Source: Hyperoplus lanceolatus
Taxonomy: Eukaryota; Chordata; Actinopteri; Uranoscopiformes; Ammodytidae
Reading direction: 5' to 3'
Assembly: GCA_026929865.2 (NCBI GenBank)
Contig: CM049395.1
Location: 31,737,501-31,801,500, forward strand
Length of the DNA: 64,000 nt
In this document: one piece after another, positions 2,546 to 19,700 of the stretch
Layout: each line of letters starts with the position of its first letter
Numbering within the stretch: position 1 is the stretch's first letter
Translations under genes and position numbers: made by a program
Notes under the pieces: model-generated
Seen by the model: the letters and a program-made list of their open reading frames with translations, nothing else
Told to the model about the DNA's origin: nothing
The model's database searches: none

Positions 2546-12707
<10,162 letters not shown>

Positions 12708-15383: not shown

Positions 15384-16407
15384 ACAAGTGAATGGCAAGT
15401 ATGCTAGCAGTAGAGGTATCTGCCACCAGCATGCTGGAACATGAGTGAGTATGAGAAAACTGACTTTGCCATGGATCGCTAATTACTGCTCCTATATCCT
15501 AAAGGACAGCATTGTGTTTGTTTCCGTGTGTGTGTGTGTGTGTATGTATGTGTGGTGTGTGTGAGTATCTGGGTGCGGCTCATTGAGAGCCAGTAGCTAT
15601 TATTTCTATACCCGTTGGAGGTGTGCAGACGCAGACCATGAAAGTTAAACAAACATCTACTGCGCTAAATTACAACTCACAAAATTTCCAGTATTTAATT
15701 TTAAAAAAAATACGGTATGTGTGTGTGGGCATGTGTGTACATTGTAAAAAATGTTTTACAGAAATTCATACTCATTCTGATCAGTTAATATATTATTTTA
15801 GCACTTACAAGAGTAATTGTCTACAGCCTTTATACCATCTGTGTGAGACTGTAGCTAAATTAACATAGCAGCATGCTAACATGCTTACAATGACAAAACT
15901 ACCATGCTGAGAATAATATTCACAATCTTAGTTAAGCATGGTAAACTTGCAAATAATATTATTATTATTACACAATCTCAATTAAATAGTGTGCTGTAAA
16001 TGCCTTTGATTCCACCATGGAACACTGGCTTGAGGTTAAGATATGAAATATGGTCATTTTTATGGTCAAGTGCGGTTTATGTGGATGTTTACATTCCACA
16101 ACCACTGATCATGAACTTGGGTTCAGTTCCCTCACACACATCAGGGCCAATTTCTAATGTTATGGGTGGCCATGTACAAGACTATTTACTGGCCAAGAAG
16201 CAGTCTCTTACATGCTCATGTACGCCTCTGTTTTATAAGTATTGACCAAATGAGTGACACCATGCTAATTATCGAGCTTAACGGCCTCTGCACACATCCT
16301 GCGTCTACCTCTGGAGCGCTTCGCCTTACGGCCTCCGCTCACATCCTACCTCTACTGCGCGTCTACCTCGCGTCTGCGTCTGACTTTTTGTCACTGACCG
16401 TGTAATC

Positions 16408-16445
16408 CATAGACATTATAAAGGATATCCTTTATAATGTCTATG
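16408..16445. mobile_element. 38-bp perfect palindromic mini-element
   Basis: CATAGACATTATAAAGGAT followed directly by its exact reverse complement, flanked by GTGTAATC on both sides (16400-16407, 16446-16453). The other arm of the surrounding inverted repeat (18081-18100 region) has one GTGTAATC and no insert. Confidence 0.8.
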
Positions 16446-16653
16446 GTGTAATCAACCTAGAGCGGGCACACATCCAACCTCAGGGCCCACTCACACTAGG
16501 GCCGTTTGCCTGTTCCGTGCTGCAGGAAGATTCAGCACGCCCACTCTCCACTCCCCCCACTGGCCCGTGCTCACACTGCTCGTGGCCTGGGCACGTTTGC
16601 ACCTTGCCTACGTCACCGTGCGCATTTAGGATTTGGAGCGTAGTCTTGTAGAC

Positions 16654-16702
16654 CATAGACATTATATATGGATCCTTATATATATCCTTTATAATGTCTA
16701 TG
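16654..16702. mobile_element. 49-bp near-palindromic mini-element, second copy
   Basis: Starts CATAGACATTATATATGGAT and ends CCTTTATAATGTCTATG, flanked by TTGTAGAC on both sides (16646-16653, 16703-16710). Same 13-base ends as the 38-bp element 200 bp away. Confidence 0.75.
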
Positions 16703-19700
16703 TTGTAGACTATACGACTGTTTGTGAATATTTTCATCCGGCCAAATTTGCATCATATATTCCACTTCCACATTAGAGCAACGGGAATCCTTAAGCTATT
16801 GTTTTTTTTTTTAAATGTAGCCTTGACGTAATAGGTCGCGGTGGACAGTCTCATATTTGTGCAGCACGCTGTTTATTATTAATATAACGGCCCGTCATCA
16901 GACCGGATGGTTTTATACACACACACATCGCTCCATCAAATCCAAGTCAGAACTTTTTGTATGGGCAGAGATCGTTTTTTTGAGTGTCTTTCTAAAGTTT
17001 CTTGTTAAACCTTAGTGTAGGCTACTGTTTCCTTATCACCGGGCCGCGTGTGTTGTTTTGGGTGCGTCTCCACCGCCATGCGTAAAGGCAGTTATGACAG
17101 CTGACGGGAGGAAAAAGAAAAAAATCATCTGACGAACGTGAGTAAACACGAAAACCTTTTGGCTTTGCTTTCTGCGCTCACCTATTTAGCTCTCTCCCTC
17201 TTTTATTAGCCCACACCTCGGCCTACACACACGTTAATTCTCACAGATTTTATGTAGCTACAAGTCCAAGTGGTGGGCAATTATGGTGCCGACTAGTAAG
17301 GCAGCGGACGTTAACGGACTATCCATCCTTAATAAATTCAGTCAGGAGCAGCCTGTGCGCTTGCTTGTGCGCGTGTCATCTCATTAGCATCTGTACTTTG
17401 GCCAACGGGCTGTTCCGTGCTGGAATACAAGTTGGCGTGGTCACACTAGCCAAACGTTCTAGACTTTAGTATGCAAATGAGCTTTGCGGGGCCGCGGCCC
17501 TAATGTGAGAGAGAAAAAAAAAGGCAATGGGGCGCACGGATTACTGTCAAGACTCTATATTAGACTCAATATAAATCATATGCATCATAAATGACACGAA
17601 AGAACCTAATTTTAAATGGGAATTATCTATGAAAACTCTATGTAGAAAGATAGGGCTTTTAGAAGCAGGCTGCAGCAGCAGCAGCTGCTGAGCGTTCATG
17701 TGTTCAGAAAAGTCCGAGAGACGCAGCAGTAAGGTAAGGCGACGCGCTCCAGAGGTAGACACAGGATGTGTGCAGAGGCCGTTACCTTACTGCTGCGTCT
17801 CTTTTTTCGTTTTTTTTTTTTTCACATTTTCGCTTGTTGGAAGTTTTATTTTGAAAGGAACACACCAGGAAATGGTGAAACTACAGCGAAAACTGCCGGT
17901 ATGAAGTCAATATGACTCGCAGCAGAGTATTTCTCTATCAGTTAAAGCAGAGAGTCCCGAGAGAGACGCGCGTGTCGAAAAATAGGCGAGCCTCCTGAGG
18001 TAAAGGGGAGCGTCGCTGCAGACGTGCCTCCGACGGGCATCAGCAGTGCGTCTGAGGTTGGATGTGTATCCGCTCTAGGTTGATTACACGGTCAGTGACA
18101 AAAAGTCAGATGCAGACGCGAGGTAGACGCGCAGTAGAGGTAGGATGTGTGCAGAGGCCGTAAGACATGTTGGAATGCATATAGCATTACCTTTGAAAGG
18201 AGCAAGGCTAGATGTTCCAGTCTTTACGGTAAGCTAAACCAACTGGCTGCTGGCAGTGGATTTATATGCAGGCTACCATACAGAGTTAATTGATGCGAGT
18301 AATGATCAACCTTTGCATCCAACTCTCTGGTAAAAGTGAATAAGCAGCATATCTCCAAGTGTCAAACTTTTCCTTCAAGCATATCAACTCAATGTTTTCA
18401 ACCGCACCAAGTAATTAAAAACTTTGTTAAAAAATGGATGTTTGTGTCAATATGACATCTGGTTTATTTTTCACTGATCACTTAACCATCTGAAGACATA
18501 CAGGTTTGTCCCTGATCCAGAGCAGGGCAGCAGACTGTCAAGCCTGAGCGACAGAGAACAGGAGGACTGTTGAAAGACTCAGGGTAACAGTGATGGAAGG
18601 AATGAGGCTTAAGGAAACGAAAGAGCAACGATTTTGGCAGACAAGCAATGAGACACAAGGGAAGTGTGGTAGAACACAAACTCTTTTTCACTGACTCTTT
18701 CGAGAAAAATGAAGAATTGAAAAGATACCTTAGGAGGAATGGGGGTCTAATGGCACAACAACACAGCAGCATTTGTTGATGTGGTTTCTGTTACAGAATG
18801 ACACAGATACAACTTTTAAAAGGCCAAGTGGAGCTGCTGTGTCATGCTCAGACGAATAAAGGAGGAAGCTGTATGAACAAAACACTAATGAAGCCACACC
18901 AACCAAAGAAATAAATCAGATATCAAATGACAGAATTGTACACCTCCATTTCTCTTTGTGATTCTGAACTGAGGTGTGGCTTTTTTCACCACAAAGACTT
19001 AAGCACCAGTCATTATATCTTGTAGGCCTGGGTTTTAAAGAAATGCTCAAACCGAAAACTGGTCTTTTTGGGTATCAAACACTAACCTGGTATCAGAAAC
19101 ATGGTCGCTGTTCACATTACAAACATTTTATGGCTCGTTCCCATAATTGAAAAAAAAAATCGTTTGCCAGAAAAATGCTGATCAAATAAGTGCTACGACA
19201 AGCCATATATGGGTCAATTTAGAAAAATAATAGTACTTCTTTGTTCACTGATCCTAGCAAGCACAGTTTCTGTGTCAGCACTAATTATTATTGGCAACTG
19301 GACAAGAGAGCACAGCTGAGGCTGATCTGCATGTAATTAGTTCTGCAGATATTTTAACATTGGGGTAAGGGTTTATTCTGTGGCTTTGAGAAGTTTCTAT
19401 GACATTTTATTAAGGAGAGAGAGAGAGGAATTCAAAATACAGACTTTCAGTGCAGTGTTTCTTTAAACGATGTTTAATTTTTAATAACGGTTCTACTAGC
19501 AAAAACAACTTCAAAACTATTTTTGGAGCTCAGACATTTTGAAATAGACAGTTACAGCTGCAAGTCAGTGCTACAGCAGTAGATCTGCAACCCAGACTAC
19601 CACAGCAAACAGCACCATTTTACTGTTCCCAATACAAAACCGCTGGCTTTGATTCTCCTAACAGAGAAATGACAATAAACACACTCAGACATTTCACGTT

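Follow-up and report, generated by a model that had tools for sequence, protein, structure and literature searches.

Small palindromes in the Hyperoplus lanceolatus genome read as excision scars of a P-superfamily transposon

Two small units in the window

The window analysed here is a stretch of 64,000 nucleotides from Hyperoplus lanceolatus. At 16408-16445 it holds a 38-bp perfect palindrome flanked on both sides by GTGTAATC. These features are read directly in the window and confirm the coordinates, 16400-16453, at which a first-pass annotation had placed a palindrome with an exact 8-bp target site duplication (TSD). In 64 kb of random sequence with uniform base composition, about 2e-7 perfect palindromes of 38 bp would be expected. 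The right tail of the palindrome overlaps the left tail by 2 nt, a TA microhomology join. A second unit, absent from the first-pass annotation, lies 208 bp beyond the palindrome; it is an imperfect palindrome of 49 bp at 16654-16702, also with an exact TSD. The features are as follows.

16400-16407, no strand: left copy of the 8-bp TSD GTGTAATC; the sister arm has a single copy, at 18082-18089
16408-16427, forward strand: left tail, 20 nt of end type A (CATAGACATTATAAAGGATA), identical to nt 1-20 of a 1.9-kb element (L117e)
16426-16445, reverse strand: right tail, also 20 nt of end type A, identical to the opposite strand of L117e at nt 1893-1912
16446-16453, no strand: right copy of the TSD GTGTAATC, in the window sequence
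16646-16653, no strand: left TSD of the second unit, TTGTAGAC, exactly duplicated at 16703-16710
16654-16673, forward strand: 20 nt of end type B (CATAGACATTATATATGGAT), a 20-mer found at 95 genome sites; 20 were fetched, and in 18 of them the long parent follows
16674-16682, no strand: 9-nt filler CCTTATATA between the B and A tails
16683-16702, reverse strand: 20 nt of end type A, by match to end A
16703-16710, no strand: right TSD of the second unit, TTGTAGAC, an exact duplicate of the left copy
18052-18164, reverse strand: empty target site in the other arm of the inverted repeat, 108/113 identical to the joined flanks of the first unit

The host of the palindrome is an interrupted inverted repeat (window 16279-16483 and 17734-18164) with a repeated GGATGTGTGCAGAGGCCGT motif. 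For an empty-site test, we joined 16325-16399 to 16446-16483, omitting the unit and one TSD copy, and aligned the product to the reverse complement of 18052-18164. The alignment is gapless, with 108 of 113 positions identical, and the sister arm, which carries GATTACAC at 18082-18089, is thus the unoccupied site. The earlier claim that an element inserted here with an 8-bp duplication, and that the other arm kept the empty site, is borne out by this match. The window site itself held no intact element.

The two window units differ in their ends: the palindrome is A/A and the unit at 16654-16702 is A/B. BLAST of the 6381-bp and 1.9-kb parents described below against the window matched both small units and nothing else. 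Elsewhere in the window, a 442-aa open frame at 8457-9785 (reverse strand) resembles a LINE reverse transcriptase by eye. On C2, a partial copy of the host repeat (L121) bears a 22-bp scar.

Genome-wide survey of small units

We searched the 806.7-Mb assembly that contains the window. A search for the exact pattern CATAGACATTATA-(0-30)-TATAATGTCTATG returned 131 sites, compared to 0 for a reversed-pattern control across the whole assembly. With gaps of 31-61, 12 sites were returned (control 0), five of which are, by eye, neighbouring pairs or members of a tandem array. A looser pattern, CATAGACA-(0-30)-TGTCTATG, gave 304 sites against 10 in the control; independent scars are fewer than 304, because some of these sites are copies of one scar within a host repeat.

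Our sample consists of the 50 listed among the 131 pattern places, all 50 of them examined (48 fetched, two in the window), and 15 places added from the upper part of the similarity list (four as loci, eleven fetched); a tandem array, L083, was kept apart. These 65 sites reduce to 57 non-redundant units, as one (L077) was left unparsed with an extra base in one end and seven were dropped as copies with an identical unit and identical adjacent 8-mers. An exact 8-bp TSD flanks 44 of the 57. All 44 TSDs are different, and the units between them comprise 37 distinct sequences of 29-55 bp. Once the 22-bp set described below is added, the small units span 22-56 bp with mostly differing centres, and there are 61 distinct exact TSDs, whose consensus, G T n n n n A C, is like that of 13 longer elements. 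The first-pass annotation had named confinement to one larger repeat as what would speak against it; the units instead lie at many places with different 8-bp flanks.

The 13 units without an exact TSD include three with one mismatch (L068, L072, L079) and one with the TSD 4 bp off (L006); others lie in multi-copy repeats or adjoin another unit. Some units recur with different TSDs among the 44: a 36-bp unit four times, a 33-bp unit three times, and a 34-bp and a 29-bp unit twice each. The 22-bp unit occurs at 17 TSDs. We read these recurrences as favoured microhomology joins, while noting that a moving micro-element would also give them.

Several units have been carried along by their hosts. 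A 34-bp unit is common to seven of the 50 listed places (L029, L035, L043, L046, L052, L054 and L058), where it sits, scar-like and without a TSD, at the same place in seven near-identical copies of another repeat, and is thus a scar multiplied by its host. L034 is a more distant copy, with another centre. In L044 and L055, a 34-bp unit has flanks that are inverted copies of each other over 16 bp, with no direct duplication. L083 (C14:31838700-31839400) is a scar turned tandem array of about five 44-bp units, each made of a 36-bp scar and a GGGCCTAC-like TSD. Among the looser-pattern sites we also noticed a third end type, CATAGACATAATA, with its own scars, such as the 24-bp CATAGACATAATATTATGTCTATG (e.g., C1:10348504-10348530).

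The parent element family

A 64-base query identified 47-nt ends common to dispersed places, with at least 42 matches (40 of 509 candidates scored). Nine of the 30 returned loci have a second border with an exact 8-bp repeat inside the locus, delimiting elements of 60, 64, 118, 293, 351, 376, 459, 1247 and 1447 bp. Four of the other 21 loci were fetched at 5 kb, and all four end at 1696, 1703, 1704 or 1912 bp with an exact 8-bp repeat at the borders. The 1.7-1.9 kb copies have inverted repeats of about 300 bp. One long copy, L116, has a damaged right end.

End A, read as CATAGACATTATAAAGGATAGACGCCGC with A or T allowed at base 10, has 328 exact occurrences in the genome. Among the 20 fetched of the 95 occurrences of end B, 18 continue GGATAGACGCCGCG and L158 does so with one difference. 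On C1, all five B ends other than that of the window unit face an A end within 2 kb (by eye); parents, like scars, therefore come in both A/A and A/B forms. At C2:29463398-29469535, another A end faces a B end at a distance of 6.1 kb, possibly another coding copy.

A hard limit on arm length

The arms of the small units match the end of the long elements, in which CATAGACATTATAAAGGATA is followed by GACGCC, and halt just before GACGCC. Of 114 arms from the 57 units, 20 nt are kept in 21 and 19 nt in 22, and 21 nt of end A are kept in none. The tail of end A is thus about 20 nt long; 19 and 20 nt are not fully told apart, because base 20 is A and the fillers are A+T-rich. For end B, 2 of 15 arms reach nt 21. 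When both end types are allowed, none of the 88 arms of the 44 exact-TSD units extends beyond the border between GGATA and GACG. We note that the minimum arm of 13 nt was set by the search pattern, and that the upper limit alone is the result.

The joins between arms are short. In 18 of the 44 units there is no filler, and the tails overlap by 0 nt in six, 1 nt in three, 2 nt in six and 3 nt in three; the other 26 contain filler. On a plain, uncontrolled reading, many fillers hold words of the tail. The window palindrome is a TA join of two 20-nt tails, and the 36-bp form (4 of the 44) is an AT join. The tail also contains a 6-nt palindrome, TTATAA, able to pair with itself between two tails, and microhomology joining would therefore be expected to give a 22-bp unit, CATAGACATTATAATGTCTATG, a product that we predicted before searching for it. 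The genome search returned 50 such sites, with 0 in the control. Exact TSDs flank 18 of the 21 examined (20 fetched stretches), 17 of them distinct; two of the 50 sites sit within larger units (L031, L059).

We explored whether internal deletion by interrupted gap repair, in which synthesis from the sister is followed by end joining, could have produced the small units instead of the direct joining of tails. Derivatives of 118, 293, 351, 376, 459, 1247 and 1447 bp with exact TSDs point to such repair in this family, and two insertions differ in length between copies of their host repeat. In the first of these, a 33-bp unit (L032) and a 64-bp unit (L084) have a common TSD and common flanks (99 per cent), L084 having 7 extra bases on the left; in the second, flanks and TSD are common to a 1696-bp element (C7:24706101) and a 351-bp element (C4:18508657). 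We read each pair as one insertion that was copied with its host repeat and then met different fates. The long copy L151 (C4:8183692-8184091) has a B end that stops at the same border, with about 21 nt kept and interior element sequence directly after it, which is what gap repair from one side would leave. In flies, SDSA often precedes end joining (PMC2895639). Gap repair predicts many arm lengths, however, and the short class has a hard stop, followed by a dip at gaps of 31-61 (12 sites against 131 at 0-30). Two units of 60 and 64 bp with exact TSDs (L085 and L084), in each of which one arm passes the border, are classed as internal deletions. Gap repair thus accounts for the class of 60-1447 bp and not for that of 22-56 bp, for which we regard it as very improbable.

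Slightly less probable still is that the 22-56 bp units are micro-MITEs, themselves mobilised by a hAT or P transposase. Exact and differing TSDs at 44 of the 57 units would fit such movement, as would identical units at different TSDs (the 36-bp unit at four, the 22-bp unit at 17). The 44 units nevertheless fall into 37 distinct sequences rather than having one common interior, their arms stop where the long parent continues, and the predicted 22-bp joining product exists. In the shortest units, as few as 8 nt of one end remain outside the 6-nt overlap, and the parent is P-type, as set out below. We dropped the micro-MITE reading on centre diversity, the arm limit and the 22-bp prediction. 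The first-pass annotation had taken the 38-bp unit itself to have transposed; the diversity of the units, the fixed stop inside a longer parent and a structure like that of P scars speak against this.

The coding parent carries P-superfamily domains

One member of the family, of 6381 bp, lies at C3:38106098-38112478 (L165, L161, L166). It has ends CATAGACATTATAAAGGATAGACGCC at both borders, the terminal inverted repeat CATAGACATTATAAAGGATAGACG at both ends and the TSD GTTGGGGT, and is 95.7 per cent identical in DNA to the 1.9-kb element over 833 bp. Its open pieces match four Pfam models (PF05485, PF21787, PF21788 and PF21789): THAP at 5e-11, TNP-like_RNaseH_N at 1.7e-48, TNP-like_GBD at 1.2e-30 and RNaseH_C at 6e-7 and 4.6e-6. 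The last C-terminal piece had no Pfam match. THAP, an RNase H-like fold and a GTP-binding insertion domain, along with an 8-bp TSD and terminal inverted repeats, are features of the P superfamily, and by these predicted domains the parent family is P-type, with THAP9-like transposase domains, rather than hAT.

Four long non-coding copies keep a C-terminal remnant of the transposase on the reverse strand, with 59 per cent identity over 59 residues (BLASTP) to L118, a P-type transposase elsewhere in the genome with a Pfam match to THAP9_C at 1.6e-7. In a Pfam search of six-frame pieces of the 1.9-kb copy, neither this remnant nor a LINE-like piece matched a model; the remnant is tied to the P type by the BLASTP match to L118 and by DNA identity to the coding copy. 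A PDB sequence search with the C-terminal piece of L118 returned three matches at E 0.36-0.42, none of them a transposase.

The P-type GTP-binding insertion domain has 19 matches in the genome. Seven of these loci were read (L118, L119 and L160-L164), and one of them, L161 on C3, belongs to the scar-parent family. The other six (L118, L119, L160 and L162-L164) were rejected as parents, as the stretches fetched lack a CATAGACATTATA pair.

A hAT parent, with the units as hAT footprints or hAT MITEs, has almost no credence left: an 8-bp TSD whose second base is T and whose seventh is A fits a hAT target pattern, but hAT excision leaves flank letters rather than 20 nt of each end, and we dropped this reading because the coding copy between the same ends has P-type domains. 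A hAT MITE would share its ends with a hAT transposase gene, and the ends here are shared with a P-type one. The hAT assignment made at first pass is accordingly not supported. As the parent is P-type and the small unit is not the mover, the palindrome also says nothing on how little sequence a hAT transposase needs, the wider meaning it had been given.

A model of excision and tail joining

We consider the small palindromes to be excision footprints, that is, repair scars, of a P-superfamily transposon and not mini-transposons, with a probability of roughly 95 per cent. At the window palindrome, GTGTAATC was duplicated by the insertion of an element whose ends read CATAGACATTATAAAGGATAGACGCC; the sister arm kept the empty site. 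The arms, taken with what is known of the Drosophila P element, suggest that a P-type transposase then made staggered cuts at each end, with one strand cut at the border and the second about 20 nt into the element. After the element's departure, each flank would have kept a single-stranded 3′ tail of about 20 nt of the transposon end. The junctions suggest that the two tails were end-joined where 2 nt (TA) overlap, and the product reads TSD, 20-nt tail, inverted 20-nt tail and TSD; the palindrome arises because one and the same tail sequence is present in both orientations. Sealing was presumably by end joining of the polymerase-theta type. We read the unit at 16654-16702 as a second scar, left by a parent with one A end and one B end and joined through the 9-nt filler.

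P-type cleavage with 3′ tails is proposed here from the junctions only, which keep both TSDs (44/57) and a fixed maximum of end sequence (0/88 arms past the border), as P-type footprints do. Their tails do not have the 17-nt length of Drosophila, as 43 of the 114 arms keep 19 or 20 nt. For four further scars (L032, L042, L045 and L066), the surrounding repeat was also fetched in a copy whose site is empty, with the 8-mer present once.

We think it likely, with less assurance than for the scar reading itself, that a few hundred germline scars of P type have been archived naturally in this genome, and that the transposase cuts about 20 nt inside its ends, compared to 17 in Drosophila. An inner motif may set the position of the cut, a ruler suggested by the fact that the two end types are 1 nt apart in length and yet both break immediately ahead of GACGCC. 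Both the stagger and the rules of germline end joining would then be readable from one assembly.

The usual pipelines would label palindromic insertions this short, with TSDs, as micro-MITEs; here they appear to be scars, a distinction by which counts of transposition become counts of excision. With scars of this kind, the stagger of a P-type transposase can be measured from sequence outside Drosophila. As numerous independent germline joins of identical substrates, they would also be a natural parallel to the fly P excision assay with which polymerase theta is studied. The type of scar is already known from flies; what looks new is the length of the tail, about 20 nt, and the archive across the genome. 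In the open-licence PMC literature we found no description of such scars in vertebrates or of a longer stagger, which is weak evidence of absence, and a literature search with CATAGACATTATA found no paper.

Comparison with known P-superfamily systems

Galileo has long inverted repeats and a TSD, and the 1.7-1.9 kb copies here are like it in their inverted repeats of about 300 bp. It belongs to the P superfamily (PMC4168063), in a different host and with a different sequence.

Like zebrafish Pdre2 and THAP9, the family belongs to the P superfamily, with 13-bp terminal inverted repeats beginning CATA, an 8-bp TSD and internally deleted copies; the Pdre2 terminal repeat, CATACCTGTCAAC, differs from that of the family here (PMC10983969). 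The accessible text of that paper gives the 17-nt stagger for the Drosophila transposase only and describes no genomic scars.

The units also resemble excision junctions of the Drosophila P element. Its transposase makes the cut on one strand 17 nt within the element (PMC7776569) and leaves 17-nt 3′ tails on the flanks, which end joining turns into TSD-tail-join-tail-TSD (PMC2895639). The repaired junctions read TSD, CATGATGAAATAACATA, join, TATGTTATTTCATCATG and TSD, and among short-microhomology isolates from the spn-A mutant the join is (AT) in 14 and (TA) in 5 (PMC2895639). As in Drosophila P{wa} excision junctions, the units here have an 8-bp TSD on both sides and inverted-repeat tails in opposite directions, the joins are AT or TA or short, often apparently templated insertions, and the tail ends in ATA (PMC2895639). 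Unlike the 17-nt tails of Drosophila, those here are about 20 nt for end A and 20-21 nt for end B, and unlike the junctions recovered in the Drosophila assay, the scars here are natural and have accumulated at a few hundred places in the genome (PMC2895639).
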